A DNA stretch of 64,000 nucleotides from Microbacterium testaceum StLB037 (GTDB taxonomy: Bacteria; Actinomycetota; Actinomycetes; Actinomycetales; Microbacteriaceae). Position 1 is the first letter of the stretch, and each line of letters begins with the position of its first letter. The notes under the pieces were generated by a model that was not told the DNA's origin, did not search any database, and saw only the letters and a list, made by a program, of their open reading frames with translations. Position numbers and translations under genes: made by a program. Positions 3,218 through 21,270 of this stretch are shown here, one piece after another. Location of the stretch: NCBI RefSeq assembly GCF_000202635.1, contig NC_015125.1, forward strand, positions 1,178,001 to 1,242,000, read 5' to 3'.

Positions 3218-3232
3218 TGTAGCCATACTACA
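3218..3232 (-). promoter_or_regulatory. RpiR-type operator with embedded -10
   Basis: On the gene strand the site reads TGTAGTATGGCTACA, a perfect TGTAG-N5-CTACA inverted repeat. It contains TAGTAT, a good actinobacterial -10, placed about 30 bases before the GTG start of the glycosidase. The identical 15-mer occurs at 12605-12619 in front of the RpiR gene. A bound repressor would cover the -10. Confidence 0.75.
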
Positions 3233-3439
3233 TGTTCTGGTCGATTGCGCCGCTGTGGATCCGGCATTCACGCACGAACATGGCATTTCGCGTAGCAGCG
3301 CTACCGTCTGCGCGGCGGCATCCATCGTCCAGTGAGGGGTTCGGGTGCGTTGCGCCGGGCGGGGCCGAAAACACTCGCCCCGACCGGAGGAACGCGCCCC
3401 GAACCCGAGAAGACGGGGGCGGATGCCACGGGCACCGGC

Positions 3440-4705
3440 TCAGTCGGCGTTGGCGCGGACCTCGACGAGGGTGGCGTCGAGCTCCGCGATCACCGTCTCG
3501 ACGTCGCTGCGCCCCGCGATGAGGTTCTGCATGCCCACGAGCAGCGTCTCCTGCAGCTGGGGGTGCGCGGGGATCACCACGGGGCGGAAGGTCTTCCCCT
3601 CCCACGCCGCCGTCATGGCGGGGAACAGCGGGTCGTTCGCCGAGACGTCGATGCCCCCGGTCGTGGGGAACGCCTTCACCGAGGTGAGGAAGCCGGTGTA
3701 CACCTCGTCCTGGAAGAAGAAGTCGATGAAGCTCTCGGCGGCTTCGACCCGATCGTTGCCGGGGTTGATCCCCCACGCGACGAGGTAGCTGCCCCACATG
3801 TCGGCGACGTCGGCGTCGAGCGTGGGGAAGTTCATGTAGCCGGGCTCCACCCCCGCCGCGCGCGCATCGGAGAGGATCCAGGTCGCGGGGAACATCGCCG
3901 CCTGCCCGCTGAGGAAGGCGGACTTCGCGGCCGACTGGTTCGTCCCGAGGGGGTCGGGCATGTAGGCCGGGACGAGGTCCTTCACGACCTCGAGCGACTC
4001 GGCGTAGCCGGGGATGTCCGCGAAGGTCTTCTCCCCGGCGAGCAGTTCCTCGATCGCACCCGGGTCGTCGGGGAACACGTGCTGGGCCATCGCGTAGTAG
4101 GCGATGAACTGGGGCCACCAACTGTCCTGGGCGCTCATCGCGATCGGCGTGATGCCCGCGGCCGACAGCTTCTCGGTCGCGGCCTTCAGCTCCGTGTAGG
4201 TCTGCGGCACCTCGGTGATGCCCGCCCTCTCGAACAGCGCGGTGTTGTAGATGATGCCGTTCCCCGACTGCGAGATGGGCACCGAGTACGCGGCATCCCC
4301 CTCCGCTCCCCGGCGGGCTTCCTGCGCGGCGGCCGCGTCGAGGCGCGAGAAGAAGTCGGCCCCCGACAGATCGGCGGCGAACCCGTCGCGGACGAAATCG
4401 GTCAGGTTCTTCGGGTCGAACCCGTAGACGTCGGGGCCGGCGCCGCCGGAGAGGCGCGTCTTGAGGACGTTGTCGTAGTCGTTCGTGTTGACGAACTCGG
4501 CGTTCACGGTGATGCCGGGGTTCTCGGCCTCGAACGCGTCGATGACCTTCTCGTACGCCTTCTGCGTGTCCCCACCGTCACCCCACATCAGGAAGCTGAG
4601 GGTGGTCGTGTCGCTCGAGGAGGCTTGGCATCCGGTGAGGGATGCCAGAGCCAGGGCGCTCAGCGCCGTCGCGGTCGTGACGGTCAGGGCGAGGGAACGG
4701 GGCAT
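3440..4705 (-). CDS. Sugar-binding lipoprotein, second paralogue
   Basis: This 421-residue extracellular lipoprotein captures sugar for the ABC importer. The signal peptide ends in LTGC, a lipobox, and the mature part has the extracellular solute-binding family 1 fold signature (LSFLMWGDGGDTQKAYEKVIDAFEAENP, then GGAGPDVYGFD and FPATW). The ATG at 4705 is preferred to an upstream TTG because it puts GGAAAG at a usable distance and gives a normal signal peptide. It is closely similar along its whole length to the next upstream protein (4772-6034), so the pair looks like a tandem duplication. A strong hairpin lies between them. Confidence 0.93.
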   Translation of the reverse strand: MPRSLALTVTTATALSALALASLTGCQASSSDTTTLSFLMWGDGGDTQKAYEKVIDAFEAENPGITVNAEFVNTNDYDNVLKTRLSGGAGPDVYGFDPKNLTDFVRDGFAADLSGADFFSRLDAAAAQEARRGAEGDAAYSVPISQSGNGIIYNTALFERAGITEVPQTYTELKAATEKLSAAGITPIAMSAQDSWWPQFIAYYAMAQHVFPDDPGAIEELLAGEKTFADIPGYAESLEVVKDLVPAYMPDPLGTNQSAAKSAFLSGQAAMFPATWILSDARAAGVEPGYMNFPTLDADVADMWGSYLVAWGINPGNDRVEAAESFIDFFFQDEVYTGFLTSVKAFPTTGGIDVSANDPLFPAMTAAWEGKTFRPVVIPAHPQLQETLLVGMQNLIAGRSDVETVIAELDATLVEVRANAD

Positions 4706-4721
4706 GGGGGATCGTCTTTCC

Positions 4722-4765
4722 AAAAAGGAACCGCCTCGCCCGGGATCTCCCGGGCGAGGCGGTTC
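4722..4765 (-). terminator. Intra-operon rho-independent terminator
   Basis: A perfect 18-bp stem (4728-4745 with 4748-4765, rich in GCCTCGCCCGGGA) is followed on the minus strand by five T residues. It lies just past the stop of the first binding-protein gene and directly before the ribosome-binding site of the second. It should reduce read-through and so lower expression of the second paralogue and, unless they have their own promoters, genes beyond it. Confidence 0.88.
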
Positions 4766-4771
4766 GGTCGT

Positions 4772-6034
4772 TCAGCGGTTGTTGGCGCGGTACTGCTCGA
4801 GGGCCACGTCGAGGTCGCCCAGCACCTGCTCGGTGGTCTTCTGACCACTGATGATGTTCTGCAGTCCGACGAGCAGCGCATCCTGGATGCTCGGGTCGGT
4901 CGGCGAGAACGCCGCCACGAAGGTCTTGCCCTCCCAGGCCGCCTGCATCTCGGGGAAGAGCGGGTCGACATCGGCGCCGATCTCGACGTCCTTCGTGGTG
5001 GGGAACAGCTTCACCTTGTCGAGGAACGCCTTGTAGGTGTCGTCCTGGAGGAAGAAGTCGAGGAACTTCTGCGAGGCGGCGAGCTTGGCATCCCCGTTGT
5101 TCGGGTTCACCCCGAACCGCACCTGGTAGGTGCCCCACAGGTCGTTCGACGGCTTGTCGACGGTCGGGAAGTTCATGTACCCGAGGTCGAGGCCGGCCTC
5201 ACGGGCGTCGGAGAGGATCCACGTCGCCGGGAACATCGCCGCCTGGCCCCCGAGGAACGCCGACTGCGCGGCGGTCTGGCTCGTGCCCACCGGGTTGGGC
5301 ATGTAGTACGGCGTCAGGTCGCGGACGACGTCGAGCGATTCGGCCCAGGCCTGACTCTGGGAGAAGGTGGTCTCGCCCGCGGCCATCTGCGCGCCGAGCT
5401 CTTCGTTCGCCCCGTGCTCGGCGAGCGCGTAGTAGACGATGAACTGCGGCCACCAGTTGTCCTGCGCGCTCATCGCGAAGGGGATGATCCCGGCATCCGA
5501 CAGCTTCTTGGAGTCCGCCAGCAGCTCGCTGTAGGTCGTGGGCGGGGCGTCGATGCCCGCCTTCTCGAACAGCGCCTTGTTGTAGATGATGCCGTTGCCC
5601 GACAGGGAGATGGGCAGGTTGTAGGTTCCGCCGGCGCGCTGGCTGTCCTTCGCCGCCTCGGGGGTCAGCTTCGACAGGTAGCTCTCGCCCCCGTCGGAGA
5701 GGTCGGCGGCGAAGCCGTCGGCGACGAAGGTGTCGATGTTGCCGAGGTCGAATCCGTAGACATCCGGGCCGGCGCCGCCGGAGAGGCGGGTCTTGAGGAT
5801 GTTGTCGTAGTCGTTGGTGTTGAAGAACTCCGCGTTGACCGTGATGTCGGGGTTGGCCGCTTCGAACTTCGTGATGACGTCTTCGTACGCCGTCTGCGTG
5901 TCGCCGCCGTCGCCCCACATCAAGAAGCTGAGCTCGGTGGGACCGCCGCCGGCACCTCCCGCGCAGCCGCTCAGCGCGCCTACGGTGGTCAATGCGACCG
6001 CCGCTACCGCCGTGTGCCTCAGCCACTTCGTCAT
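4772..6034 (-). CDS. Sugar-binding lipoprotein, first paralogue
   Basis: This 420-residue lipoprotein is the substrate-binding subunit of the CUT1 importer. The signal peptide ends in LSGC. The body shows the family 1 solute-binding pattern: TELSFLMWGDGGDTQ, GGAGPDVYGFD, PISLSGNGIIYN and AMSAQDNWWPQF. The ATG at 6034 has AGGGAG five bases upstream; a GTG at 6040 would leave no room for one. It is the first gene of a leftward operon with its own operator-bearing promoter and its own terminator, so it is probably the more abundant of the two binding proteins. Differences from its paralogue may mean a different oligosaccharide range; this is inference. Confidence 0.94.
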   Translation of the reverse strand: MTKWLRHTAVAAVALTTVGALSGCAGGAGGGPTELSFLMWGDGGDTQTAYEDVITKFEAANPDITVNAEFFNTNDYDNILKTRLSGGAGPDVYGFDLGNIDTFVADGFAADLSDGGESYLSKLTPEAAKDSQRAGGTYNLPISLSGNGIIYNKALFEKAGIDAPPTTYSELLADSKKLSDAGIIPFAMSAQDNWWPQFIVYYALAEHGANEELGAQMAAGETTFSQSQAWAESLDVVRDLTPYYMPNPVGTSQTAAQSAFLGGQAAMFPATWILSDAREAGLDLGYMNFPTVDKPSNDLWGTYQVRFGVNPNNGDAKLAASQKFLDFFLQDDTYKAFLDKVKLFPTTKDVEIGADVDPLFPEMQAAWEGKTFVAAFSPTDPSIQDALLVGLQNIISGQKTTEQVLGDLDVALEQYRANNR

Positions 6035-6090: not shown

Positions 6091-6105
6091 GGTAGCAAGA
6101 CTACA
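6091..6105 (-). promoter_or_regulatory. RpiR-type operator, binding-protein promoter
   Basis: On the gene strand it reads TGTAGTCTTGCTACC, one mismatch from the perfect palindrome. It contains TAGTCT, a likely -10, and lies 57 bases before the ATG of the first binding-protein gene. Its centre is 73 bp from the centre of the next operator at 6164-6178, which serves the divergent gene. Confidence 0.7.
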
Positions 6106-6163: not shown

Positions 6164-6178
6164 GCTAGTGCGACTACG
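6164..6178 (+). promoter_or_regulatory. RpiR-type operator, divergent promoter
   Basis: The sequence GCTAGTGCGACTACG matches the TAG-N5-CTA core with changes at the outer bases, so it is the weakest of the eight sites. It lies 35 bases before the ATG at 6213. No clear -10 is embedded in it; it may be an auxiliary site. Confidence 0.55.
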
Positions 6179-6212: not shown

Positions 6213-7520
6213 ATGCAGACACGCCCGCCCCTCGGCCGACGACTGACCATCAACACCATCGTCCGCCGCCACCAGATCGAGGCGACGAGGAACACCTCCC
6301 TCTGGGAAGACGAGACCGCGCTGCACTCCGCCGCCCTCGTCGAGCGGTTCTCCGACGCCGTGCGTTCCGCGGTCCCGGATGCCTCCCTCACGTGGGCCCT
6401 CTCGTGGGGTGCGCTCACCGACGGTTCCCCGCGCTACCGCGACATCCGCCGCACGCTCGCCCGCCTCGCCGCCGAGCACGGCGACGACATCACGTTCGTC
6501 CCCGGCGGATTCTTCGCCAACCTCTACGGCACGCGCGACGAAGTCGCCCGCGACATCTCCGACGCGGTCGACCTGCTGCACACGCATTTCGACCGCCCGA
6601 CCACCGCACTGGTCGCCGGGTTCCTCTCGGCGGCGAACATCGCGGGAGCGCGCGATCTCGGCATCCGTACCGTCCAGGGCAACATCTGGAGCCAGTTCGA
6701 CATCGACCTGCAGGACGGCGACGGCTCGCTCGCGTACCCCTACTACCCCTCACGGAACCACTTCCTCGTGCCCGGCCGCGGCGACGACCGCATCGACGCG
6801 GTTCAGCTCGACGGCTGGACGGTCGATCTCGTGGCCGCCCGCACCGCGGGCATGTCGTCCGAGTACAACTCACGGCTCGGACTCGGCCCCATCGAGACGC
6901 TCCACCGCCTGCCGCGCCAGGACGCGCTGAGAGAACTGGATGCCACGAGCGAGGCGCACCTGAACGACCGCAACGTCGCGCGCAACGGCCTCGGCTGGCT
7001 GACCGTCAACTACGAGATCAGCGAGGTCGCGCGCGGGCTCGAGCACGACCCCACCACGCTCGATGCCTGGGCGGGCTGGCTCGGGGGCCTGCGCGAGCGG
7101 TGGAGCGATCTCGAGCTGACGACGATCGGCCGCTTCGGCGACGAGTGGCGCGCCCGGCACGCCGACAACGAGGACCTCGCCTACCTCCTGCAGCAGAGCG
7201 GCAGCGGCGTCCAGGCCTCGCGCGCGGGAGAGACGGTGACGTGGTTCATGTGCGCCGACTTCCGCCTCGGTGTCGTTCAGGTCGGCGACACGGTCGAGGT
7301 CTTCGACTACACGTCCTATGCGGGTGCGTTCGTCGAGCCCGCGGAGCGGGGGGATCGCCGATGGAGCCTGCTCGGCGAGATCAACCAGAAGCAGACGCGC
7401 CCGCAGGACCGTCCGGTCGCCCTGGCCGCCTTCCTCGCCCGGCACCCGGACGTTGATGCCGCCCTGGACCAGCGCTGGGGCGGCGCTCCCGAACTCCGCG
7501 CGCTGCGGGACGCCGCATGA
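6213..7520 (+). CDS. Uncharacterised protein coupled to rhamnosidase
   Basis: The 435-residue product has no signal peptide or membrane helix, so it should be cytoplasmic. I do not firmly recognise it. Its beginning (INTIVRRHQI), the segment LTWALSWGALTDGSPRYRDIRRTLARLAAEHGDDITF and the motif GFFANLY recall DUF3863/DUF3864 proteins, some of which have deacetylase-like barrels, but this is from memory and not verified. The start has GTGAGG just upstream. The stop overlaps the GH78 start by ATGA, so the two are co-translated and probably act on the same imported glycoside. It is controlled by the shared operator pair between it and the binding-protein gene. Confidence 0.7.
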   Translation: MQTRPPLGRRLTINTIVRRHQIEATRNTSLWEDETALHSAALVERFSDAVRSAVPDASLTWALSWGALTDGSPRYRDIRRTLARLAAEHGDDITFVPGGFFANLYGTRDEVARDISDAVDLLHTHFDRPTTALVAGFLSAANIAGARDLGIRTVQGNIWSQFDIDLQDGDGSLAYPYYPSRNHFLVPGRGDDRIDAVQLDGWTVDLVAARTAGMSSEYNSRLGLGPIETLHRLPRQDALRELDATSEAHLNDRNVARNGLGWLTVNYEISEVARGLEHDPTTLDAWAGWLGGLRERWSDLELTTIGRFGDEWRARHADNEDLAYLLQQSGSGVQASRAGETVTWFMCADFRLGVVQVGDTVEVFDYTSYAGAFVEPAERGDRRWSLLGEINQKQTRPQDRPVALAAFLARHPDVDAALDQRWGGAPELRALRDAA

Positions 7521-10024
7521 TCGCGGTCACCGACCTCACCGTCGAGCACGCCACGGATCCGGTGGGCATCCCGGCATCCCCCCGCTTCGGGTGGACCCTA
7601 CGCTCCGACATCGACGGCGTCCGGCAGCTCTCCTACCGCCTGAGCGTGCGCCGCGGCGCCGAGACGCTGTGGTGGAGCGGCCCCGTCACCTCCGACCGCA
7701 GTGTCGACATCGCCTACGACGGCCCGCCGCTGGCCCCGCTCCGCCGCTACGAGTGGACGGTCGTGGTCACCACGACCGCCGGAGACGCCGCCGCTACGGG
7801 AACCTTCGTCACCGCGGTCCTCGACGACGACTGGCGGGGCGCGACCTTCATCGGCGCCGCCGACGACGGCGCGGCCGCTCCCCTGCTCCGCACGGAGTTC
7901 GACGTGGATGCCACCCCCGACGAGGCGTACCTCGTGGTCGGGGCCGGGGGTCTCGCCCACGTCGAGATCGACGGCGCTGTTGTGGACGACAGCGTCCTCG
8001 GTCCCGGCTTCACCGATTACGAGGTGAGCGCGCAGTACACCGTGGTCGACGTGACCGCTCGGCTCACGCCCGGCCGCCACGCGATCGGCGTCGAGCTCGG
8101 CCGCGGGTTCTACGGCATGCGCGGGCGCAACACGTGGAACTGGGAGACCGCGCCCTGGCACGCCGACCCCTCCGCGCGCGTGCTGCTGCTCCTGCGCGAT
8201 GCCCGCGGCGAGCGCGTCATCGCGAGCGACTCCGCGTGGAGGACCGCGGCGGGCCCGACGCGTCTCGACGACCTCTACGCCGGCGAGGACTACGACGCGC
8301 GCCTCGAGCAGCCCGGGTGGAGCACCGCCGGGTTCGACGACCGCGCGTGGCCGAGCGCCCGTGAGGTCGAGGGCCCGCGCGGGGTTCCCGTCCCCGAGCG
8401 TCAGCCCCCGATCGTCGAGGGCGAGCTGCTCGAACCGACGCGGGTCACACAGCTCGGCGAGGGCCGCTGGGTCGTCTCTTTCCCCCGCGTGATCGCCGGA
8501 TGGGTCGAAGTCGACGCCGAAGCGGATCCCGACGGGGAGATCGAGCTGCGATTCGGTGAGAGCCTCCGCGCGGACGGGACCCCGAACTCCGACGACGAGA
8601 AGGGGTACTTCGACGGTCGCTTCCAGACCGATCGCCTGACGCTCGCGGACCGGCCGCTGCGGTGGCATCCGCGATTCACGTGGCACGGGTTCCAGCACGT
8701 CGACGTGCGCGCGCGCCGGCTGCCGACCCTGCGCGCGCGCGTCGTGCACACGCGCGCCGCGCGCACCGGCCGCGTCGAAACCTCGTCGCCGATGCTCAAC
8801 ACCCTGCACGAGCTCACGGTGCGGACAATCCTCAACAACCTGCACGGCATCCCGACCGATACGCCGAAGTACGAGAAGAACGGGTGGACGGGCGACGGCA
8901 TGGTCGGCGCCCGGATGATGCTGCTCAACCTCGACACGCACGAGCTGCTCGCCAAGTGGGTCGCCGACATCGCGGCATCCCGTCATGGCGAGGGAGCACC
9001 CGAGGTGATCGCCCCGCACGGGGGGTGGAGCATGGACTGGACGCCCGCTCCGACGTGGCACTCCGCGCTGCTCCTCGTGCCGTGGGACATCTACGCGCTC
9101 CGCGGCGACGCCCGCGTGCTCGAGGACGTGTGGCCCGACGCCCGTGACTACCTGCGTTTCGAGCTCGCGCGGGGCGTCGAGGGTCTCTTCGACACGACTC
9201 TCGGCGACTGGGTGAGTCCCGAGACCGACCCGGGCGGCGGCAACGCCCCCGAGGACACCCGGGTCGCGGCGACGGCGTTCGTCATCGCGATGTGCGACAC
9301 GGCAGCCGCGATCGCGCGCGTGCTCGGCGACGACCCCGCCGAGTGGCAAGCCGCCGCCGCGCGCTCCCGCTCCGCGTTCGTCGCGGAGTTCTGGGATTCC
9401 GAGACCGCCGAGGTCCGCGGCCGGGGCGACGCCGGGTACCGCCAGGCGCACACCGCGCTGGCCCTGGCCTTCGACATCCTCCCCGAGGCCGACCGTCAGC
9501 GCGCGGCCGACCGGCTCGCGGCCGACGTCGTCGAGCGCGGGCACCACCTGTCGACCGGTGCTCTCGCGACCAAGCACCTCCTGCCCCAGCTGACGCGCTT
9601 CGGCCACGCCGACGCGGCTGTGGGGGTCGCGCTGCAGACGACGTTCCCGAGCTGGGGCTTCTGGGTCGAGCGCGGCGCGACCTCGCTCTGGGAGCACTGG
9701 AGGGAGGAGTCGCGCTCGCGCGGGCACTACTTCCTCGGCACGATCGAGGACTGGCTCTACGCCGACGTGGCAGGTCTCCAGCCCGTCTCCCCGGGGTGGC
9801 GCGAGGCGCGGATCGCCCCGCGGGTGCTCGGGACGGCGCTGTCATCGGCGAGCGCGGCCGTCCGCACGCCGTACGGCGAGCTAGCGGTGCAGTGGCGCGT
9901 CGAGGACGGCGAGGTGACGCTGTCGTGCGAGGTGCCGATCGGCGTGCGCGCCGAGATCGAGCTGCCGGGCTTCCGCCGCCGCGTGGACGCCGGGAGCTAC
10001 GAGGTGCGCGTGGCCCTCTATTGA
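7517..10024 (+). CDS. Alpha-L-rhamnosidase, GH78
   Basis: This 835-residue enzyme should release terminal L-rhamnose from oligosaccharides or glycosides in the cytoplasm; there is no signal peptide. It starts with a fibronectin-like Bac_rhamnosid_N region (GIPASPRFGWTLRS), then a carbohydrate-binding beta domain with the hallmark ELGRGFYGMRGRNTWNW. The helical (alpha/alpha)6 catalytic barrel contains IPTDTPKYEKNGWTGDG, the counterpart of the usual DCPQRERLGWTGD motif, with Glu at about residue 453 as probable general acid. A C-terminal beta domain closes the protein. The motif is divergent (YEKNGW instead of RERLGW), so a related rhamnose-like or uronic substrate is possible. It is coupled to the preceding gene by ATGA. 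Confidence 0.88.
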   Translation: MIAVTDLTVEHATDPVGIPASPRFGWTLRSDIDGVRQLSYRLSVRRGAETLWWSGPVTSDRSVDIAYDGPPLAPLRRYEWTVVVTTTAGDAAATGTFVTAVLDDDWRGATFIGAADDGAAAPLLRTEFDVDATPDEAYLVVGAGGLAHVEIDGAVVDDSVLGPGFTDYEVSAQYTVVDVTARLTPGRHAIGVELGRGFYGMRGRNTWNWETAPWHADPSARVLLLLRDARGERVIASDSAWRTAAGPTRLDDLYAGEDYDARLEQPGWSTAGFDDRAWPSAREVEGPRGVPVPERQPPIVEGELLEPTRVTQLGEGRWVVSFPRVIAGWVEVDAEADPDGEIELRFGESLRADGTPNSDDEKGYFDGRFQTDRLTLADRPLRWHPRFTWHGFQHVDVRARRLPTLRARVVHTRAARTGRVETSSPMLNTLHELTVRTILNNLHGIPTDTPKYEKNGWTGDGMVGARMMLLNLDTHELLAKWVADIAASRHGEGAPEVIAPHGGWSMDWTPAPTWHSALLLVPWDIYALRGDARVLEDVWPDARDYLRFELARGVEGLFDTTLGDWVSPETDPGGGNAPEDTRVAATAFVIAMCDTAAAIARVLGDDPAEWQAAAARSRSAFVAEFWDSETAEVRGRGDAGYRQAHTALALAFDILPEADRQRAADRLAADVVERGHHLSTGALATKHLLPQLTRFGHADAAVGVALQTTFPSWGFWVERGATSLWEHWREESRSRGHYFLGTIEDWLYADVAGLQPVSPGWREARIAPRVLGTALSSASAAVRTPYGELAVQWRVEDGEVTLSCEVPIGVRAEIELPGFRRRVDAGSYEVRVALY

Positions 10025-11793: not shown

Positions 11794-12552
11794 TCACCAG
11801 GCCGAGTAGCCGCCGTCGATCAGCACCACCGAGCCGGTCATGTACGACGCCGCGTCCGACGCGAGGAACGCCACGAGAGAACCGATCTCTTCGGGGGCGC
11901 CGAGGCGCCCCATCGGGGTGCGGCGCACCCAGTCGTCCCACCAGTCGGTGGGGACGCCCTCTTTGGTCAGCTCCGTGCCGACGTAGCCGGGGGCGACCGC
12001 GTTGACGCGGATGCCCTGCTCGGCGAACTCGATCGCGAGCGACTTCACGGCGAGGTGCACCGCCCCCTTCGAGGCGTTGTACGCGGCCTGACGCTGGGGC
12101 GCGTTCGCGAGTTCGCCCGACATCGAACCGATGGCGACGATCGAGCCGCCGCTCTCCTGCATGTGACGCGCGGCCTCGCGCGCGCACCAGAACGTTCCGG
12201 TCGCGTTGACGGCGAGCACGCGGTCCCAGGTCTCGCGCTCGAGGTCGAGCGACGGCTGGTGGTTGGCGATGCCGGCCGAGGTGACGAGGATGTCGACCGA
12301 TCCGAGACGCGTGGCCACGTCGGCGAAGACGCGCTCCACCTCGGCGGCATCCGTGACGTCGAGATGCACGTACGACACGCGCCCGCTCGCGAACGACGCT
12401 GCGGCCGCGGTACCCGCCTCGTCGAGCACGTCGGCGATGACGACGATCGCCCCGAACTCCTCGAGAGCGGTCACCACCGCGAGTCCGATGCCGCGGGATC
12501 CTCCCGTCACGACCGCCACCCGGTCGGTGAGTTCCAGCCTTTGTCGGTACAT
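11794..12552 (-). CDS. SDR oxidoreductase, divergent from rpiR-type gene
   Basis: The 252-residue cytoplasmic enzyme is a classical short-chain dehydrogenase. TGGSRGIG near residue 19 binds NAD(P), and a Ser-Tyr-Lys set is visible (SIVAIGSMSG, then YNASKGAVHLAVKSLA). The C-terminal SVVLIDGGYSAW is typical of FabG-like sugar or polyol dehydrogenases. A strong AGGAGGA lies five bases before the ATG at 12552. It is transcribed away from the RpiR gene, with an operator between them whose minus-strand reading contains TAGTAT, 60 bases before this start. It probably oxidises a sugar or sugar acid in the pathway; the substrate is not known. Confidence 0.9.
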   Translation of the reverse strand: MYRQRLELTDRVAVVTGGSRGIGLAVVTALEEFGAIVVIADVLDEAGTAAAASFASGRVSYVHLDVTDAAEVERVFADVATRLGSVDILVTSAGIANHQPSLDLERETWDRVLAVNATGTFWCAREAARHMQESGGSIVAIGSMSGELANAPQRQAAYNASKGAVHLAVKSLAIEFAEQGIRVNAVAPGYVGTELTKEGVPTDWWDDWVRRTPMGRLGAPEEIGSLVAFLASDAASYMTGSVVLIDGGYSAW

Positions 12553-13540: not shown

Positions 13541-14493
13541 CCGGGGTCGTGCTGGTCACCTCCCGCTCGTTCGGGTCGGGCGAGTACGACCCCGAGGCGG
13601 TGCTCGCGGAGGCGGGATACCGCGTCGTGCGCGCCGGATCGTCGCACGAGCTCGATGAGCTCGCGCCGCTCTTGGCGGACGCGGACGGGTGGATCGCGGG
13701 CACGGGTCCCGTGACCGCCGCGCACCTCGATCTCGCACCGAGGCTCCGGGGGATCGCCCGTTACGGCGTCGGCGTCGACAACGTGGATCTGGCCGCGGCG
13801 GCGGCGCGCGGCATCCCGGTCACGAACACCCCCGGCGCGAACTCGGCCGCCGTGGCCGAGCACACCCTCGCGCTCCTGCTGACGGCGCTGCGGGGAATCC
13901 CCGCGGCCGACCGTCGCGTGCGAGCCGGAGACTGGTCGGGACAGCCCGCCCGCGAGCTGTCCGCGCTGACGGTCGGGGTGGTGGGGCTGGGCCGGATCGG
14001 ACGCCTCGTGACCGAGCGCCTGCGCGCCTTCGGCGCCACCGTCCTCGGAGCCGATCCGTGGGTCGACGCCCGCGATCCGCTGTTCGAGACGGTGGAGCGC
14101 GCCGACACCGAGACTCTTTCGACGCGCTGCGATGTTGTGACACTACATGCGCCGGGGGGTCAGAAGGTCATCGACGAGCGGTGGCTCTCCGCCGCCGACC
14201 GCCCGGTCCTGCTCGTGAACACGGCCCGTGCCGACCTGGTCGACGAGGAAGCGGTCGCCCGCGCCGCCCGTCGCGGGCGCGTGGCCGCGTACGCCGCCGA
14301 CACCCTCGCCATCGAGACGACCGGCGACGCCGCGTCGCCGCTTCTCGCCGACGACCTGGCCGACCGCGTGGTCGTCACCGCGCACCTCGGCGCGCAGACC
14401 CGCGAGGGTGTCGACGGCATGGGGCGCATGGCCACCACCGACATGGTGGCGTTGCTGCGCGGGCACGCTCCCGCGCACCCCGTGCCCGCATGA
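13537..14493 (+). CDS. D-2-hydroxyacid dehydrogenase
   Basis: The 318-residue NAD(P)-dependent enzyme belongs to the phosphoglycerate/glyoxylate reductase family. The nucleotide-binding GLGRIG lies at 150-155 with the family-typical GVVGLGRIGRLV, and the catalytic set is Arg231 (VNTARADLVDE), Glu260 and His283 (TAHLGAQT). It probably reduces or oxidises a 2-keto or 2-hydroxy sugar acid, or glyoxylate-like product, of the pathway. The GTG start overlaps the stop of the regulator gene by GTGA and its stop overlaps the next gene, so the three are one transcriptional unit. Confidence 0.88.
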   Translation: MTGVVLVTSRSFGSGEYDPEAVLAEAGYRVVRAGSSHELDELAPLLADADGWIAGTGPVTAAHLDLAPRLRGIARYGVGVDNVDLAAAAARGIPVTNTPGANSAAVAEHTLALLLTALRGIPAADRRVRAGDWSGQPARELSALTVGVVGLGRIGRLVTERLRAFGATVLGADPWVDARDPLFETVERADTETLSTRCDVVTLHAPGGQKVIDERWLSAADRPVLLVNTARADLVDEEAVARAARRGRVAAYAADTLAIETTGDAASPLLADDLADRVVVTAHLGAQTREGVDGMGRMATTDMVALLRGHAPAHPVPA

Positions 14494-15419
14494 GCGGGTT
14501 CGTCCGGTCCGCCACGGGCGACCTCGCCCCCGAGGCGCTCGGGACCGTCGATTATCACGAGCACCTCTTCCAGGTCTCGCCGCTCCTGCCGGACGACGAC
14601 CTCGACGACGAGGAAGCCAGCACCGAAGAGACCCGCCAGTTCGCGGCATCCGGATTCCGTACCCTCGTGGATGCCACTCCCCTGGGCCTCGGTCGGCGCC
14701 CCGCGGCGGCACGGCGCATCGCCGAAGCCACGGGAGTCACGGTCGTGCTGACGACCGGGCTGCACCGGCGCGAGCACTACGCCGAGGGCCATCCCCTCCT
14801 GTCCGCCGACGTCGACACGCTCACCGCGGCCTTCATGGACGACCTCGTGCGCGGCGCCGCGGAACCCGGCGAGGCCCGCGACCCGTCGGTCCGGGCGGGG
14901 GTGCTCAAGGCGGGCATGGGGTACTGGCGAATGGATGCCGTCGCCCGACGCTCCCTCGAGGCGATCGGCCGCGCGCACGCGGCGACCGGCGCGCCCGTCA
15001 TGGTGCACCTCGAGCACGGGACGGCGGCGTTCGAGACGCTCGAGGCGCTGGCATCCGTCGGCGTGCCCGCGCACCGCGTGGCCCTGGCGCACATCGACCG
15101 CAATCCCGACCCGGGGCTGCACGCCGAGCTCGCGGCGACGGGCGCATTCCTCGGCTACGACGGCCCCGCTCGCGCGCGCGAGCATCCGGATTCCGTCGTC
15201 CTGTCGTGCCTGATCGCCACGGCCGCGGCCGGCGGCGCGGATCGCATCCTGCTCGGCGGCGACGTCGCTCGCCGGACGCGGTACATCGCGTACGGCGGCA
15301 TGCCCGGGCTGCGCTACCTCGGCGACCGGTTCGTTCCGCGCCTGCGCGCCGAGGGCGGCGACGATCTCGCGGACGCCGTCCTGCGCCGCAACCCCGCCGC
15401 CTGGCTGACCTGGGGCTGA
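14490..15419 (+). CDS. Phosphotriesterase-family lactonase (probable)
   Basis: This 309-residue amidohydrolase-superfamily protein has all metal ligands of the phosphotriesterase family: His23 and His25 (VDYHEHLF), Lys140 (GVLKAGMG, the carbamylated lysine), His173, His201 (ALAHIDRNPD) and Asp258 (LGGDVAR). Many relatives in sugar operons are lactonases, including enzymes that open phosphorylated furanose lactones. In this setting, hydrolysis of an aldonolactone made by one of the SDR enzymes is the most economical guess. The ATG overlaps the preceding stop by ATGA. Confidence 0.85.
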   Translation: MSGFVRSATGDLAPEALGTVDYHEHLFQVSPLLPDDDLDDEEASTEETRQFAASGFRTLVDATPLGLGRRPAAARRIAEATGVTVVLTTGLHRREHYAEGHPLLSADVDTLTAAFMDDLVRGAAEPGEARDPSVRAGVLKAGMGYWRMDAVARRSLEAIGRAHAATGAPVMVHLEHGTAAFETLEALASVGVPAHRVALAHIDRNPDPGLHAELAATGAFLGYDGPARAREHPDSVVLSCLIATAAAGGADRILLGGDVARRTRYIAYGGMPGLRYLGDRFVPRLRAEGGDDLADAVLRRNPAAWLTWG

Positions 15420-15702: not shown

Positions 15703-15717
15703 AGTAGCCGAACTACG
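15703..15717 (+). promoter_or_regulatory. RpiR-type operator, upstream copy
   Basis: The site AGTAGCCGAACTACG matches the palindrome except at the outer pair. Its centre is exactly 73 bp upstream of the next operator's centre, the same spacing as the 6091/6164 pair, so both would lie on nearly the same face of the DNA. Confidence 0.65.
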
Positions 15718-15775: not shown

Positions 15776-15790
15776 TGTAGTGTTACTACG
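15776..15790 (+). promoter_or_regulatory. RpiR-type operator with embedded -10
   Basis: The site TGTAGTGTTACTACG contains TAGTGT as a probable -10 and lies 43 bases before the first gene of the six-gene operon. The upstream copy at 15703-15717 would assist by looping or cooperative binding. Confidence 0.72.
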
Positions 15791-15832: not shown

Positions 15833-16435
15833 ATGTGCGCCGCTGCACGACTGGCCGAACCGGCCCGGATGACCGTCGACATCGCCCGCGGCCTCCTCGC
15901 CGGAGGATCCGAGCGTTACGAGAAGCACCTGCCCGACCTCGTCGGCGTCTACCGCGACGACGCGGCCTACGCCGAAGCGGTCGCTCGCGATGACGGCGAG
16001 CCGGTCTACTGGGTCGAGAGCAGCACGCCCGAGACCGGGCGCGGAGCGCTCACGATCGGCCTCAGCGTCCTCCGGCCCGGACGCGTCGGCGACGAGTTCG
16101 CGATGACCCGCGGGCACCTGCACGCCCAGTCCGAGTTCGCCGAGCTGTACTACGGCGTCGCGGGCTCCGGAGTGATGCTGCTCGAGTCCGTCGAGGGCGA
16201 GTCCCGCGCCCTGCCGATCACCCCGGGCGTGGTCGTCCACGTCCCCGGTGGCTGGATCCACCGCAGCGTCAACGTCGGCGACGACACCCTCGTCACCCTC
16301 TTCACCTACGCGACCGAAGCCGGTCAGGACTACGGCATCATCGCCGACGCCGGCGGGATGCGGCAGCTCGTCGTGGCCGACGGCGACGACTGGACGACCC
16401 GCCCGAACCCCGACCACGGAGGCTACCGTGCCTGA
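15833..16435 (+). CDS. Cupin-type sugar-phosphate isomerase
   Basis: The 200-residue protein is a small cupin related to the archaeal-type glucose-6-phosphate isomerase family (GPI). The metal-binding motif is visible as TRGHLHAQSEFAELYYGVAGSGVML, and the second cupin motif as HVPGGWIHRSVNVGDDTLVTLF. It probably interconverts an aldose and ketose, free or phosphorylated. The ATG at 15833 has AAGGGAA upstream and follows the operator by 42 bases. It is the first gene of a six-gene unit; its stop overlaps the GTG of the next gene by eight bases. Confidence 0.85.
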   Translation: MCAAARLAEPARMTVDIARGLLAGGSERYEKHLPDLVGVYRDDAAYAEAVARDDGEPVYWVESSTPETGRGALTIGLSVLRPGRVGDEFAMTRGHLHAQSEFAELYYGVAGSGVMLLESVEGESRALPITPGVVVHVPGGWIHRSVNVGDDTLVTLFTYATEAGQDYGIIADAGGMRQLVVADGDDWTTRPNPDHGGYRA

Positions 16436-17117
16436 CCCCGGTCCCGTCCTGGCCGACCTCGCTCGGCACATCGACATCAGCTGCGTCCAGGCGCAGCACG
16501 CGCGCGCCGATATCGACGAGCTCGTCCGGCAGGCGGTGGCGGGCGGTTTTGTCAGCGCCCACGTCCTGCCCGAGTGGCTCGGCTACCTGCGCGAGCGGTT
16601 GGACGGCACGAGCGTCCTCGCCGGGTCGCCGGTGTCGTTCCCGAGCGGCGGCGCCACGACCGCGACGAAGGTGGCCGAGGCATCCGAACTCCTCTCCCTC
16701 GGCGCTCAAGAACTCGACGTGGTCGTCGCGATCGGGCGCCTGCGCTCGGGCGACGACGCCTACGTGACGAACGAGCTCGCCGCGATCGTCGAGGTCGTCG
16801 ACGGCCGCGTGCCGCTGCGCGCGATCCTCGAGGTGGGCCGTCTCGACGACGACGACATCCGACGGGGAGTGGATGCCGCCATCGAGGCCGGAGTGCCCTG
16901 GATCAAGACCGGCACCGGCTGGTCGGGCGTGGCCACCTCGATCGCACACATCCGCCTGATCGCCGACCGGGCCGACGGCCGCGCCGCCCTGAAGGCCGCC
17001 GGCGGCATCCGCGACCTCGAGACCGTCCGCGCGATGGCCGAGCTCGGCGTGACCCGATTCGGCATGAACGCCACCGCCGCGCTGGCCGCGGTCGACGCCT
17101 CGAAGGACCACCGATGA
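16428..17117 (+). CDS. DeoC-like class I aldolase
   Basis: The 229-residue protein follows the deoxyribose-phosphate aldolase pattern. The three catalytic residues of E. coli DeoC (Asp102, Lys167, Lys201) have counterparts at Asp97 (QELDVVVAIG), Lys160 (WIKTGTGW, the Schiff-base lysine) and Lys189 (ALKAAGGIR). The phosphate-binding Gly-Gly region is present. It differs from true DeoC at the start (HIDISCVQ for the usual DHT-L-K) and in its operon partners, so its substrate may not be deoxyribose 5-phosphate. The start is GTG at 16428, overlapping the isomerase stop. Confidence 0.85.
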   Translation: MPDPGPVLADLARHIDISCVQAQHARADIDELVRQAVAGGFVSAHVLPEWLGYLRERLDGTSVLAGSPVSFPSGGATTATKVAEASELLSLGAQELDVVVAIGRLRSGDDAYVTNELAAIVEVVDGRVPLRAILEVGRLDDDDIRRGVDAAIEAGVPWIKTGTGWSGVATSIAHIRLIADRADGRAALKAAGGIRDLETVRAMAELGVTRFGMNATAALAAVDASKDHR

Positions 17118-18082
17118 CTTTTCCCACCCTGACCGCCGCGACCCTGCGTCCGGCAACGGCTCCCACCCTCTATTTCATCGGCGTCACGACGGGGAGCTCC
17201 TCGATCCAGCACGTCTTCCCCCGGTGGGCCGCGCATCTCGGACTTCAGGATGCCGTGCTGCAGGGCATCGACCTGCCCCTGCACGCACCGGCCGAGGACT
17301 ACCGCGCCGTCGTGCGCTTCATCGCGGAGGACCCGCTGAGCCTGGGCGCCCTCGTCACCACGCACAAGATCGACCTCTTCGCCGCGTGCCGCGACATGTT
17401 CGACGAGATCGACGCCTTCGCCGCGCTCATGGGCGAGACGAGCTGCATCTCCAAGCGCGACGGCCGGCTCGTCTGCCACGCCAAGGACCCGATCTCGAGC
17501 GGCCTCGCCCTCGACGCGTTCCTCCCCGCCGGCTTCTGGTCGCGAGGCCCCGCCGACGCCCTCTGCCTCGGCGCGGGCGGATCGTCGATCGCGATCAGCT
17601 GGTACCTCTCCCAGCAGGAGCGGGGGCTCGACCGCCCCGCGCGCATCATCGTCACCAACCGCTCGGCCGCGCGCCTCGACCACCTGCGCGAGATCCACGC
17701 GGCGCTGCCGACCGACACGCTCTTCGAGTACCGCCTGACCCCGACCCCGGCCGACAACGCGCGCGTGCTGGCCGACCTCGCGCCGCGCTCGCTCGTGGTC
17801 AACGCCACCGGCCTCGGCAAGGACGCCCCCGGCTCCCCCCTCCCCGATGACGCCGTGTTCCCCCTCGACGGCGTCGCATGGGACCTCAACTACCGCGGCG
17901 ACCTCGTCTTCCTCGACCAGGCGCGGGCGCAGAGCGCCGAGCGCCGCCTGCAGGTCGAGGACGGGTGGATCTACTTCGTGCACGGGTGGACGCAGGTCAT
18001 CGCCGAGGTGTTCGACATCGAGATCCCCACCTCGGGTCCCGCGTTCGAGCGGTTGAGCGAGCTCGCCCTGGCCACCCGCTGA
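17114..18082 (+). CDS. Shikimate dehydrogenase-like oxidoreductase
   Basis: The 322-residue protein has the AroE layout: an N-terminal substrate domain with FIGVTTGSSSIQHVFPRW and VTTHKIDLF, where Lys85 matches the catalytic lysine, then Asp125 (AKDPISSG) matching the catalytic aspartate, and a Rossmann domain with CLGAGGSS at 151-158. It is longer than normal AroE (about 270-290) and sits in a sugar operon rather than with aromatic genes, so I infer that it oxidises or reduces a polyhydroxylated carbohydrate intermediate. The start overlaps the DeoC-like stop by ATGA. Confidence 0.83.
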   Translation: MTFPTLTAATLRPATAPTLYFIGVTTGSSSIQHVFPRWAAHLGLQDAVLQGIDLPLHAPAEDYRAVVRFIAEDPLSLGALVTTHKIDLFAACRDMFDEIDAFAALMGETSCISKRDGRLVCHAKDPISSGLALDAFLPAGFWSRGPADALCLGAGGSSIAISWYLSQQERGLDRPARIIVTNRSAARLDHLREIHAALPTDTLFEYRLTPTPADNARVLADLAPRSLVVNATGLGKDAPGSPLPDDAVFPLDGVAWDLNYRGDLVFLDQARAQSAERRLQVEDGWIYFVHGWTQVIAEVFDIEIPTSGPAFERLSELALATR

Positions 18083-18085
18083 CCC

Positions 18086-19597
18086 ATGGGACCCCTCGCT
18101 CTCGCCCTCGACCTCGGCACCGGTGGCTGCAAAGCCTCGCTCTGGTCGGCCGACGGTCGCGCGGTCGCCGAGACGGTCGTGGCGTATCCGACGCGGCATC
18201 CCGGTCCCGGCCGTGCCGAACAGCGTCCGCAGGAGTGGTGGGATGCCGTCGTCTCGGCGACCCGCGAGGTCGTCGCCCAGACTCCCGGCGCGCGCGAAGC
18301 CGTCGTCGGGATCGCCCTGTCGGGGCAGAGTCTCGGCGTCGTGCAGGTCGACGCCGCCGGAGAACTCGTCGCCCGCGACACCCCGATCTGGTCGGACACC
18401 CGCGGGCGCACGGGCGAGATCCTCGACCGCATCGACGAGGACGCCTGGTACCTGCGCACGGGCAACGGCTTCGGCGCGCAGCTGTATCCGGTCTTCAAGG
18501 CCCAGACGATGCGCGCCGAAGACCCCGAGGGGTGGGCGCGCACCCGGTCGCTTCTCGGGTCGAAGGACTGGATCACCCTGCGGCTCACCGGCGAGATCGC
18601 CACCGACCACTCGATGGCATCCGGATCCGGTGCCTACGACCTCACCCGCGGCGACTACGACGACACGATCCTCGACGCGGCCGAGCTCGACCGCTCTCTC
18701 CTGCCGACCCCGCGCGAGTCCGCCGACGTCGTCGGGACCCTGCGGCCCGCGGCCGCCGACGCGCTCGGCCTTCCCGCGGGCGTCCCCGTGCACGCGGGCG
18801 CCGTGGACAACGCGGCCATGGCCCTCGGCTCGCGCGGCACCACCGACGGCCGGATCTACGCCGCGCTCGGCTCGTCGAGCTGGATGACGGTGACCTCGAG
18901 CGTCCCCGTGCTCGACGTCGAGACGCGCCCCTACGTCTTCCGTCACGCCGTGCCCGGTCTGTACGTCAGCGCCCTCTCGACCTTCAGCAGCGGCACGACC
19001 GTGACGTGGCTCCGCGACGTGCTGCGTCCGGGCGCCGACATCGGCGCGTTCATCGACGGCGCCGCGGCGAGCCCGCGCGGCGCTCGCGGCGCGGTGTTCG
19101 TCCCGACGCTCGCCGGCGGCACTCCGCTCGAGGGGGGAAGCGGCATCCGCGGCACGCTCGCCGGCATCGAGCTCGGCACTGCGGCGGAGGATCTCGTGCG
19201 CGCGTGCCTCGAGGGCATCGCCTTCGCCCTGGATCGGAGCCTGCGCCACATCCGCTCGCTCAGCGGGCTTCCCGCCGACACCGACCTGCTCATCTCCGGC
19301 GGGGGCAGCCGCTCCGACGTGTGGAACCGCATCTACGCCGACGTCCTCGACACGGCACTCCTGCGCACCACCGTCGATCAGCAGGCGGCGACCCTCGGCG
19401 CCGCGGCCCTCGTGTTCGCCGGGTCGGGGGTGTGGTCCTCGCTCGGCGTCGCCGACGACGCCCACCGGCTGATCGAACGCCTCGAGCCCGACCCCGACGG
19501 GGTGCGCGCCTACGCCGCCTCCCGCGACCGCTACTCCGCCGCGGCCGATGCCGCGGTGCTCTTCGCCCGATCCACCCCCTCCCAGGAGACCGCATGA
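18086..19597 (+). CDS. FGGY-family carbohydrate kinase
   Basis: The 503-residue cytoplasmic enzyme phosphorylates a sugar, ketose or sugar acid with ATP. The N-terminal FGGY domain starts with LALDLGTGGCKASLW, followed by GIALSGQSLGVV. The second domain has Asp241 as catalytic base (HAGAVDNAAMALGS) and the ATP-binding LISGGGSRSDVWNRIYADVL. It is closest in feel to xylulokinases, but specificity cannot be read from sequence. The ATG is three bases past the stop of the AroE-like gene, and its stop overlaps the following SDR gene. Confidence 0.92.
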   Translation: MGPLALALDLGTGGCKASLWSADGRAVAETVVAYPTRHPGPGRAEQRPQEWWDAVVSATREVVAQTPGAREAVVGIALSGQSLGVVQVDAAGELVARDTPIWSDTRGRTGEILDRIDEDAWYLRTGNGFGAQLYPVFKAQTMRAEDPEGWARTRSLLGSKDWITLRLTGEIATDHSMASGSGAYDLTRGDYDDTILDAAELDRSLLPTPRESADVVGTLRPAAADALGLPAGVPVHAGAVDNAAMALGSRGTTDGRIYAALGSSSWMTVTSSVPVLDVETRPYVFRHAVPGLYVSALSTFSSGTTVTWLRDVLRPGADIGAFIDGAAASPRGARGAVFVPTLAGGTPLEGGSGIRGTLAGIELGTAAEDLVRACLEGIAFALDRSLRHIRSLSGLPADTDLLISGGGSRSDVWNRIYADVLDTALLRTTVDQQAATLGAAALVFAGSGVWSSLGVADDAHRLIERLEPDPDGVRAYAASRDRYSAAADAAVLFARSTPSQETA

Positions 19598-20319
19598 CCG
19601 CCCTGCCCCTCGTCGTCATCACCGGAGCCAGCTCCGGGATCGGCGCCGCGACCGCCCGCGCCTTCTCGGCCGCCGGCCACCCCCTGCTGCTCATCGCCCG
19701 ACGCCTCGCGCCCATGGAAGAACTCGGTCTTCCGGATGCCGAACTCGCGGAGGCCGACGTCACCGACACGGCCGCGGTGGCCGCGGCCATCGCGCGCGCC
19801 GAGGAACGGTTCGGCCCCGTCGACCTGCTCGTCAACAACGCCGGCCTGATGGCGCTCTCGGCGGTCGCCGAGCAGGATCCCGCGCTCGTGCAGGAGCAGT
19901 TCGACGTCAACTGCGTCGCGCTGGTGAAGAACAGCCAGCTCGTCCTCCCGGGCATGCAGGAACGCCGTCACGGAACGATCGTCAACATCGGCTCGATCGC
20001 CGGGAAGCAGCTCTACGAGAACCACGTCGTCTACAACGGGACGAAGTACGCCGTGCACGCGATGACCGAGGGACTGCGTCGAGAGAACGCGGCGCACGGC
20101 GTCCGCGTGCTCCTCGTCGCCCCCGGAATGGTCGACACCGCCCTGCTGAGCAACACCGGCGAGGGCGACGTCCTCGACGGCTACCGCGAGTACAAGCAGA
20201 GCATCGGCGGCGGACTCGTCCCCGACGACATCGCCCGTGCGATCCTCGCGGCGTACCAGCTCCCGCAGCACGTGAGCTTCCGCGAGATCGTGGTCGCCCC
20301 GACCTCGCAAGACGCATGA
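19594..20319 (+). CDS. SDR oxidoreductase in sugar operon
   Basis: The 241-residue classical SDR has TGASSGIG at the nucleotide-binding loop, LLVNNAGLMAL, Ser in VNIGSIAGKQLYENH and the active-site YNGTK. It resembles enzymes annotated as serine or sugar-alcohol dehydrogenases (YdfG-like). Its ATG overlaps the kinase stop and its stop overlaps the aldolase start, so it probably prepares the substrate for the aldolase or makes the lactone for the phosphotriesterase-like enzyme. Confidence 0.9.
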   Translation: MTALPLVVITGASSGIGAATARAFSAAGHPLLLIARRLAPMEELGLPDAELAEADVTDTAAVAAAIARAEERFGPVDLLVNNAGLMALSAVAEQDPALVQEQFDVNCVALVKNSQLVLPGMQERRHGTIVNIGSIAGKQLYENHVVYNGTKYAVHAMTEGLRRENAAHGVRVLLVAPGMVDTALLSNTGEGDVLDGYREYKQSIGGGLVPDDIARAILAAYQLPQHVSFREIVVAPTSQDA

Positions 20320-20945
20320 GCGCGCCCCTCGACGTGCTGCACGGCAGCCGCATCGTGCCCGTGGTGGTCCTCGACGACGCGTCCTTCGCGCCCGACCTCG
20401 CCGACGCGCTCCTGGCCGGTGGCATCCCCACCGCCGAGATCACCCTCCGCACGCCCGCCGCCCTCGACGCGATCCGCGCGGTCTCCGGCCGCCCCGGCTT
20501 CGCCGTCGGCGCCGGTACGGTGACGACCGTCGCCCAGGTCGAGGCGGCCGTCGACGCCGGAGCGACGTACCTCGTCTCGCCGGGGTTCGACGACGCCGTG
20601 GTCGAGCGGGCGGCGGCCCTCGGCATCCCCTTCATCCCCGGGGTCGCGACCGCCACCGAGATCCAGCGGGCCGTCGCCGCGGGCCTGGACCGCCTCAAGC
20701 TGTTCCCCGCCGCAGCCGTGGGCGGGCCCACCGCGCTGAAGGCGTTCGCGGGGCCGTTCCCCGACGTGCGCTTCCTGCCGTCCGGGGGCGTGTCGGCGTC
20801 GAACGCCGCCGAGTACCTCGCCCTGGGCAACGTCTTCGCGGTGAGCGGGTCGTGGATGGTCCCGTCCGCCGCGCTCACGGCACGGGATGCCGAGACCGTC
20901 CGCGCCCTGTCGGCCGAGGCGTCCGCGGCGGTCGCCGTCCTCTGA
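20316..20945 (+). CDS. eda: KDPG/KHG-type aldolase
   Basis: The 209-residue class I aldolase cleaves a 2-keto-3-deoxy sugar acid phosphate to pyruvate and an aldehyde. Catalytic residues fit E. coli Eda: Glu41 and Arg45 (AEITLRT) and the Schiff-base Lys128 (DRLKLFPAAAVGG), with SPGFDDAV and PSGGVSASNAAEY also conserved. It is the last gene of the operon. Its product pyruvate, and the likely precursor KDPG or an epimer, fit an RpiR regulator of HexR type, though the exact substrate is not known. Confidence 0.93.
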   Translation: MSAPLDVLHGSRIVPVVVLDDASFAPDLADALLAGGIPTAEITLRTPAALDAIRAVSGRPGFAVGAGTVTTVAQVEAAVDAGATYLVSPGFDDAVVERAAALGIPFIPGVATATEIQRAVAAGLDRLKLFPAAAVGGPTALKAFAGPFPDVRFLPSGGVSASNAAEYLALGNVFAVSGSWMVPSAALTARDAETVRALSAEASAAVAVL

Positions 20946-21148
20946 CCGGCCGCCCCGAGAGGGTCTCGGCCGCCGCGTCGGGCCCGCGGCGCGGCGTGCC
21001 GTCGCGCGGAGTCCGGCCACCGCCGCCGGGCGACGCGCCGTCCCGCGGGGTCCGTGCCCGACACGCCGAGTTCCGGCATCCTGAACCGGCATGTCGACCC
21101 TCGACTCCGCGAGATGGCGCCGAGCACAGCTCGCAGAACCCCGGATTG
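20946..21148. other. Non-coding leader upstream of secreted glycosidase
   Basis: With the operators that follow, the gap between the aldolase and the glycosidase is 378 bases. This first part is GC-rich with repeated CGCGG/GCCGC words and no supported gene, and no clear terminator hairpin with a T tract was seen. Confidence 0.6.
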
Positions 21149-21163
21149 AGTAGCTGCACTACA
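21149..21163 (+). promoter_or_regulatory. RpiR-type operator, distal copy
   Basis: The site AGTAGCTGCACTACA matches the palindrome except at the first base. It is 107 bp (centre to centre) upstream of the proximal copy, close to ten helical turns. Confidence 0.65.
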
Positions 21164-21255
21164 CAAATGTAGCGCCACCCGAGCGGCGGACGGCCGTAAA
21201 TCCGCGCTTGCGCATCCAAAGCAACCGCCATAGCCTCGCTGATACATCCCCTCGG

Positions 21256-21270
21256 CGTAGCATTACTACA
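21256..21270 (+). promoter_or_regulatory. RpiR-type operator with embedded -10
   Basis: The site CGTAGCATTACTACA contains TAGCAT as a probable -10 and lies 53 bases before the ATG of the secreted glycosidase, linking extracellular digestion to the same regulon. Confidence 0.7.

Follow-up and report, generated by a model that had tools for sequence, protein, structure and literature searches.

Paired, helically phased palindromes at a sugar-use locus of Microbacterium testaceum suggest a loop-forming RpiR-family repressor

In the genome of Microbacterium testaceum StLB037, the genes of a sugar-use locus are preceded by a short palindrome, GTAG-N5-CTAC, which mostly occurs in pairs, and the locus encodes a regulator of the RpiR family that we propose as the protein binding these sites. 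The window analysed here is a stretch of 64,000 nucleotides (NC_015125.1, positions 1,178,001 to 1,242,000 of the forward strand), and its coordinates are used throughout unless the whole genome is named. The regulator gene, rpiR (12635..13540, plus strand), encodes a protein of 301 amino acids, which is assigned to the RpiR family by the Pfam domains HTH_6 (68.3 bits, cut-off 28.3) and SIS (52.3 bits, cut-off 25). On the same strand lie genes for a D-2-hydroxyacid dehydrogenase (13537..14493) and a phosphotriesterase (PTE)-family protein (14490..15419), which is similar to phospho-furanose lactonases with a score below that NCBIfam cut-off. A catabolic operon in the same orientation encodes a cupin-type protein of a glucose-6-phosphate isomerase family (15833..16435), a DeoC-family aldolase (16428..17117), a shikimate-dehydrogenase-like oxidoreductase (17114..18082, weak matches below the cut-offs), an FGGY sugar kinase (18086..19597), a short-chain dehydrogenase (SDR; 19594..20319), and a KDPG/KHG-family aldolase (20316..20945; KDPG, 2-keto-3-deoxy-6-phosphogluconate). 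It is followed by the gene of a secreted-type multidomain protein, a probable glycosidase (21324..24221, plus strand).

The minus strand carries an ABC sugar permease with the BPD_transp_1 domain (140..1129), a DUF6259 protein (1126..3195; 30.9 bits, cut-off 28.7) with a putative glycosidase role, two SBP_bac_1 sugar-binding proteins (3440..4705 and 4772..6034), and a second SDR (11794..12552) divergent from rpiR. On the plus strand, a DUF3863 protein (6213..7520), whose solved relative 3lm3 is uncharacterised, precedes an alpha-L-rhamnosidase-like protein with Bac_rhamnosid domains (7517..10024).

Eight exact copies of the palindrome occur in the window. The DUF6259 gene is preceded by a predicted operator at 3219..3231, containing the hexamer TAGTAT on the minus strand, and by its upstream partner at 3292..3304. 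The site at 6092..6104 is proximal to the solute-binding protein gene 4772-6034, and 73 bp from it, proximal to the divergent DUF3863 gene, lies a ninth site (6165..6177, CTAGTGCGACTAC), which has one mismatch (a CTAG half). A single operator (12606..12618) is located between rpiR and the divergent SDR gene. In front of the cupin isomerase gene, the operator at 15777..15789 covers a -10-like hexamer, TAGTGT, with TTGCCC 18 bp upstream, and has an upstream partner at 15704..15716; before the secreted-protein gene, the operator at 21257..21269 covers the hexamer TAGCAT and has its partner at 21150..21162. The preliminary description of this DNA had listed eight sites, seven of which are exact; its site 6164 is the one with the mismatch, and the exact site 3292 had been overlooked. 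It was right that the sites are intergenic, since all nine fall between called genes.

The motif is rare rather than common, because the whole 3.98-Mb genome holds only 10 exact sites, whereas the same letters read backwards, used as the control, give 246 matches. In the window, 30 matches with up to one mismatch were found, whereas 100 shuffles averaged 5.24 (standard deviation 2.38) and none attained 30. Eight of the 10 genomic sites belong to the locus, and the other two (2395097 and 2395181 in genome coordinates) precede the gene of a distant paralogue of the 21324-24221 protein, with 51% identity over 901 aligned positions. The single regulon assumed previously is supported, and the many equally good sites before unrelated genes that would have spoken against it were not seen in the genome scan. 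This second pair of operators (2395097-2395193; L011:12098-12194 in our numbering of loci) lies far from the locus, upstream of a paralogue of about 1021 amino acids.

The sites had previously been treated singly, so that their pairing and helical phasing went unnoticed. In this genome the start-to-start spacings are 73 bp for 3219/3292, 6092/6165, and 15704/15777, 107 bp for 21150/21257, and 84 bp for 2395097/2395181. The regulator's own site, 12606, is the only unpaired one, having no partner 55-125 bp away even when one mismatch is allowed. When the spacing was fixed at 73 bp and up to two mismatches were allowed, the whole genome yielded just the three pairs of the locus, and the reversed control none.

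For comparison, loci were fetched from named genomes by RpiR-family similarity alone, and the best 80 of 192 were used. They contain 169 sites with the N5 spacer, against 1, 2, 1, and 0 sites with N3, N4, N6, and N7, and 63 sites with reversed letters. Forty-one exact pairs form a series with peaks near 73, 84, 94, and 105 bp: spacings of 72 (1), 73 (22), 74 (4), 82 (1), 83 (2), and 84 (2) bp, two of 104 bp, and one each of 92, 93, 95, 103, 105, 106, and 108 bp. Other exact spacings were 13, 25, and 44 bp (one each), and 155, 195, 196, 204, and 255 bp. One-mismatch partners of exact sites, counted in the 80 loci plus this genome's two, are found at 72-74 (20), 84-85 (6), 94-97 (12), and 105-107 bp (8), and once each at 99, 102, 110, and 115 bp; between 60 and 120 bp, 45 of 50 fall within a 3-bp-wide part of the 10.5-bp phase starting at 73. 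The degenerate partners often lack the same outer base (CTAG or TTAG for GTAG), and this is seen in several genera. The two closest exact pairs, 25 bp (L092:2731/2756) and 13 bp (L094:2345/2358) apart, each include one site that also has a one-mismatch partner 84-85 bp away.

The phasing persists under different ways of counting. Clustering by spacer identity at 0.62 chained nearly all of the 73-bp pairs and was replaced by counting by lineage. With each combination of lineage, promoter, and spacing counted once there are 75 pairs, for which the phase statistic R is 0.787, a value reached by none of 20,000 uniform draws, with a best period of 10.75 bp; these 75 "distinct" pairs are an overcount, because the promoter labels rest on rough clusters of open reading frames. 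The safer count, by lineage and spacing, gives n = 53 from 27 lineages with R = 0.717 at 10.5 bp, and without the 72-74 bp class n = 38 with R = 0.635. When one random spacing was drawn per lineage (n = 27), the median R was 0.79 and the minimum 0.63 in 2000 draws, and again none of 20,000 uniform draws reached that minimum. Control palindromes in the same loci (63, 97, 41, and 16 sites) formed 0, 0, 0, and 1 exact pairs as against 41 for the motif; a fifth control, CTAG-N5-CTAG, had no sites in the loci and hence is uninformative.

Wider searches gave the same spacings. Among 398 genomes of the family, with 63-93 bp allowed, 21 pairs in 15 genomes were all at 63, 72-74, or 82-85 bp, and among 42 relatives 13 pairs were at 73 or 83-85 bp (the three of this genome are also in the 398-genome set). 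At class level, 393 genomes searched with a gap of 70-100 yielded pairs in three, this genome among them, at 84, 107, 93, and 107 bp. Since reversed letters are common and the control pairs in the family, class, and relative searches, at about one per genome over all allowed spacings, are not rarer than those of the motif, the evidence lies in the spacing and the co-occurrence rather than in how many pairs there are.

At the promoter beside the cupin isomerase gene, the spacing across lineages is 73-74, 84-85, 92-94, 104-106, or 115 bp. It is 73 bp in Labedella, 84 bp in Frigoribacterium, Modestobacter, and Klenkia, 94 bp in Cryobacterium, Subtercola, and Mycetocola, 105 bp in Dongia, and 115 bp in Roseitalea, while three Pseudonocardia have 105, 106, or 73 bp. 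The spacings have thus changed by about whole helical turns between lineages.

The presence of pairs follows that of the regulator. Pairs occur in all five relatives, counting this genome, whose orthologue is 85% identical or more, and in none of the 37 others, one of which holds a 50% identical RpiR homologue. In the family sample, an RpiR orthologue (E <= 1e-60) was found in 12 of the 14 pair-bearing genomes besides this one, against none of 18 pairless genomes, which were hand-picked; of the two exceptions, one is a genome of 63% completeness, and in the other a homologue with 47-50% identity sits at the locus, so that 13 of the 14 possess an orthologue or homologue. Together with the 169 sites in the 80 RpiR-anchored loci, this co-occurrence supports the earlier assignment of the adjoining RpiR protein as the regulator, and we suppose that it binds GTAG-N5-CTAC. 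The genome does encode a second RpiR protein, about 30% identical, and the sites could in principle belong to a regulator other than that of 12635-13540. Such an assignment is scarcely credible to us, since the pairs track the orthologue of the 12635-13540 protein, pairs are absent from those searched relatives whose RpiR homologues reach just about 30% identity, and Pseudomonas RccR, whose recognition helix is very similar (VSEPTIVRFC as against VSEPTVMRFC here), binds the same motif.

The position of the sites relative to promoters can also be read. A TAGNNT hexamer, proposed previously as a -10 element inside the site, is present at all five sites named for it (3218, 6091, 12605, 15776, and 21256). 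Over 90 phased pairs read outward, the centre base of the operator yields TAGNNT in 89 of 180 cases, against 22 of 180 that have A there, which supports a putative -10 inside the near operator. TTG occurs 23-25 bases upstream of TAG in 26 cases outward and 8 inward, and the spacers are AT-richer than their flanks (GC 0.55 versus 0.63). From the outward excess of TAGNNT and the TTG at 23-25 bases, transcription probably begins, in many cases, immediately beyond the pair, the -35 element lying in the spacer and the -10 within the near operator. The evidence for the -35 is modest, because TTG is also frequent outward at 34-35, 46, and 55-56 bases.

We suggest that a tetrameric RpiR repressor bridges the two operators and so loops the promoter, a reading to which we give a probability of about three in four, and repression by a small DNA loop is the most likely mechanism. 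The 12635-13540 protein would act as a local repressor of the locus and of one distant paralogous gene. In this genome, each regulated promoter except that of rpiR itself has two operators about whole turns apart (7, 8, or 10 turns here; 6-11 in relatives). The tetramer would be a dimer of dimers, as in other RpiR proteins, each dimer holding one operator and the whole pinning the promoter in a small loop, with the near operator often over the -10-like hexamer and the -35 element in the looped DNA. The loop would be opened by a phosphorylated sugar made as an intermediate in the conserved pathway, probably other than KDPG. The rpiR promoter would be less strongly repressed, because it has a single operator. 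Straight DNA of 73 bp measures about 248 angstroms (3.4 per bp). Since the tetramer of the RpiR protein NanR is about 165 angstroms long (PMC12713135), one tetramer could span both operators only with bending of the DNA. All crystal structures of RpiR regulators are described as tetramers in the same source (PMC12713135).

Other regulators offer partial precedents. The lac repressor LacI, like the proposed system, uses two operators, and its repression depends on phase at spacings of 57.5-155.5 bp (PMC1762422), but it is an unrelated protein, and its phasing was established from engineered spacings, while ours comes from a comparison of natural promoters. MurR and pneumococcal NanR are RpiR tetramers for which site bridging has been proposed (PMC12713135); the two MurR sites, unlike ours, are 17 bp apart, and for NanR looping is a proposal that involves no conserved phased pair (PMC12713135). 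MocR regulators bind direct repeats that are separated by two or three helical turns and share the same DNA face, but these repeats lie within one operator motif, at much shorter distances, and the family is another one (PMC5320631). The nearest parallel is Pseudomonas RccR, which binds TGTAGT-N3-ACTACA, a 15-bp site present in two copies before aceE; there, apparent cooperativity and hypersensitive, bend-like bands between the sites were reported, the sites being 68 bp apart (83 bp start to start if this is the gap) (PMC5489143). A stricter pair pattern meant to measure the aceE spacing in Pseudomonas gave no match in 13 and in 229 genomes, the presence of Pseudomonas among the 229 being uncertain.

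The main rival to a loop is that the near site represses by covering the -10 element, while at the far site, which is in phase with it, the same protein acts as an activator. Class I activators touch RNA polymerase, as the RpiR protein at the far site would do. If the near site is tied to the -10, the site-to-site phase would also be a promoter phase, and pneumococcal NanR is itself an RpiR activator (PMC12713135). We nevertheless consider this scheme rather improbable, because in divergent regions such as 6092/6165 each site is distal to one gene and proximal to the other; moreover, the other reported RpiR regulators are repressors (PMC12713135), and the aceE footprints of RccR, the closest known regulator, are distorted between the sites (PMC5489143). 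A third scheme has two independent operators without contact, the dimers acting alone and the phase coming from common ancestry or from a preference for one DNA face. It draws on the relatedness of many loci and on 41 exact sites without a partner within 55-125 bp, which presumably work alone. Yet neither ancestry nor independence explains why the cupin isomerase promoter switches among 73, 84, 94, and 105 bp, and control palindromes almost never pair, so that this scheme appears very improbable.

Several observations weigh against the proposed loop and should be held beside it. The lineages are related, and the phase statistics therefore overstate independence, although the spacing switches do not rest on independence. 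No exact site was found in 21 of the 80 RpiR loci, some being short contigs and many proteobacterial. About half (21) of the 41 unpaired exact sites lie before rpiR, four of these being at a spacing of 195-196 bp, and about 20 lie elsewhere. Three lineages (L089, L104, and L124) carry a pair at the rpiR promoter too, so that the regulator gene does not always have a single site. The series is matched poorly by the pairs at 155 and 195-196 bp and by some of those at 97, 99, 102, and 110 bp, and the window's 107-bp pair is about 2 bp off the 10.5-bp phase. In two Desulfobulbales loci (L148:9768/9964 and L149:9760/9955), the two sites before the regulator gene are 195-196 bp apart.

HexR, an RpiR protein with a 15-bp half-site geometry, had been taken as the model for the regulator. 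It shares the fold and this geometry with the window protein, but the Pseudomonas HexR site is TTGT-N7-8-ACAA (PMC5489143), its genes are others, and the window protein scores 264.1 bits (263.8 in a repeat) against the cut-off of 296 of the HexR profile NCBIfam NF008451. The half-site letters, TGTAGT/ACTACA, are instead those of Pseudomonas RccR (PMC5489143), so that the TGTAG half-site is already known. RccR and our regulon share the same 15-bp palindrome, and among solved proteins the nearest is 8ju9 (215.9 bits, printed alignment gapless), which is P. aeruginosa RccR (PMC12713135), along with 8k3b, for which the printed aligned stretch looks the same. RccR is a tetramer in the crystal, as we propose for the window protein. 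It differs in controlling central metabolism and in also using a 28-bp site (PMC5489143 and PMC10810197 for RccR), and in a FastTree phylogeny containing one RccR sequence the 69 members of the window protein's clade group without it (support 0.96). In the literature on TGTAGT and RpiR, the relevant work among the matches listed concerns Pseudomonas; a search for an RpiR regulon in Microbacterium found none, and the parts of PMC4746261 returned for RpiR/HexR in Actinobacteria show no such motif.

The effector may be judged from the ligand pocket. RccR contacts KDPG through nine residues, and its sensing is lost on the exchange R152A, K270A, or R277A (PMC10810197). The window protein keeps S152, H177, S196, K283, and R290 (its own numbering) and has T198 and T201 in place of serines, S152, S196, T198, and T201 being the phosphate residues. 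By contrast, H148 and R152, through which, among others, RccR senses KDPG by its carboxylate, are replaced by Q161 and L165. Among 69 relatives from catabolic loci (L078-L145 and L157), the R152 position is leucine in 68 (histidine in L143) and the H148 position glutamine in 68 (histidine in L135). At R290, three Mycetocola have alanine, and two other sequences do not align. The arginine at the R152 position is retained in RccR and in each of the nine outgroup loci tabulated from L147-L156. Since four of these nine carry glutamine at the first position with the arginine kept, the loss of arginine is the telling change, and glutamine alone is not. The Desulfobulbales relatives L148 and L149 retain the RccR-type H/R residues.

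A sensor of the HexR or RccR type, released by KDPG made at the locus, would be compatible with a loop and has something to recommend it: the nearest solved relative is RccR (8ju9), most of the pocket is kept, with T198/T201 for serines, and a gene for a KDPG-type aldolase is common in these loci. However, the arginine whose change to alanine abolishes sensing in RccR is a leucine here and in 68 of 69 relatives, the HexR profile cut-off is not reached, and RccR lies outside the clade. We therefore find KDPG sensing, which the preliminary description suggested, unlikely; as a first choice KDPG/HexR was rejected on the pocket residues and the profile score. The ligand is probably a phosphosugar that lacks a carboxylate at C1, the group of KDPG held by R152 and H148.

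The gene content across lineages points to the kind of pathway involved. Neighbours were counted by tblastn with the window proteins in 81 loci (the 80 plus L070); the counts are lower bounds, some loci being short, and matches of about 35-40% may be paralogues. Widespread neighbours are the shikimate-dehydrogenase-like enzyme (61), the cupin isomerase (59), the D-2-hydroxyacid dehydrogenase (56), the FGGY kinase (55), the KDPG-type aldolase (46), and the PTE-family lactonase (41), while rhamnosidase-like, DUF6259, and DUF3863 proteins occur in 15, 11, and 14 loci. These counts indicate that the core regulon is a small sugar pathway, with polysaccharide use as a local addition; the earlier view of a polysaccharide-use locus holds locally but fits few lineages. 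A search of the literature for the gene set of this pathway found no description, and one for DUF3863 turned up nothing identifying a substrate. The 17114-18082 enzyme is weakly similar to 5-ketofructose reductase (7cok, E = 0.003) and may act on a keto sugar.

Some other features were recorded. In several proteobacterial loci, a metallo-beta-lactamase-fold protein is encoded near the regulator. The first approximately 560 residues of the 21324-24221 protein have no Pfam match, and a sequence search for a solved relative of it found none; its homologues number 132 of 8000 scored candidates, many from Paenibacillus, one being named as a glycosyl hydrolase catalytic core. A small Fic/DOC-domain protein (10050-10421, minus strand) lies within the sugar locus, and tRNA and Rfam searches of the window gave no matches.

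Looping by RpiR tetramers has so far been proposed for pneumococcal NanR, and bending has been inferred at one Pseudomonas promoter. The 73/84/94/105-bp series adds comparative evidence for such looping and supplies natural promoters for its direct test. The phased palindrome pair also serves as a search signature: it is present in 15 of the 398 family genomes, and among the 14 besides M. testaceum, 13 possess a protein orthologous or homologous to RpiR. Together, the changed ligand pocket and the set of conserved core genes are signs of a sugar pathway for which a search of the literature gave no description. We offer more tentatively, as a possibility rather than an expectation, that a large RpiR clade spanning several phyla consists of loop-forming tetramers in which a sugar ligand opens or closes the loop at the tetramer interface, this ligand being a phosphosugar of the as yet undescribed catabolic route formed by the cupin isomerase, the shikimate-dehydrogenase-like enzyme, the FGGY kinase, the lactonase, and the KDPG-type aldolase. 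If this is true, natural promoters would record the helical repeat of DNA inside many bacteria, with orthologous promoters having gained or lost whole turns.

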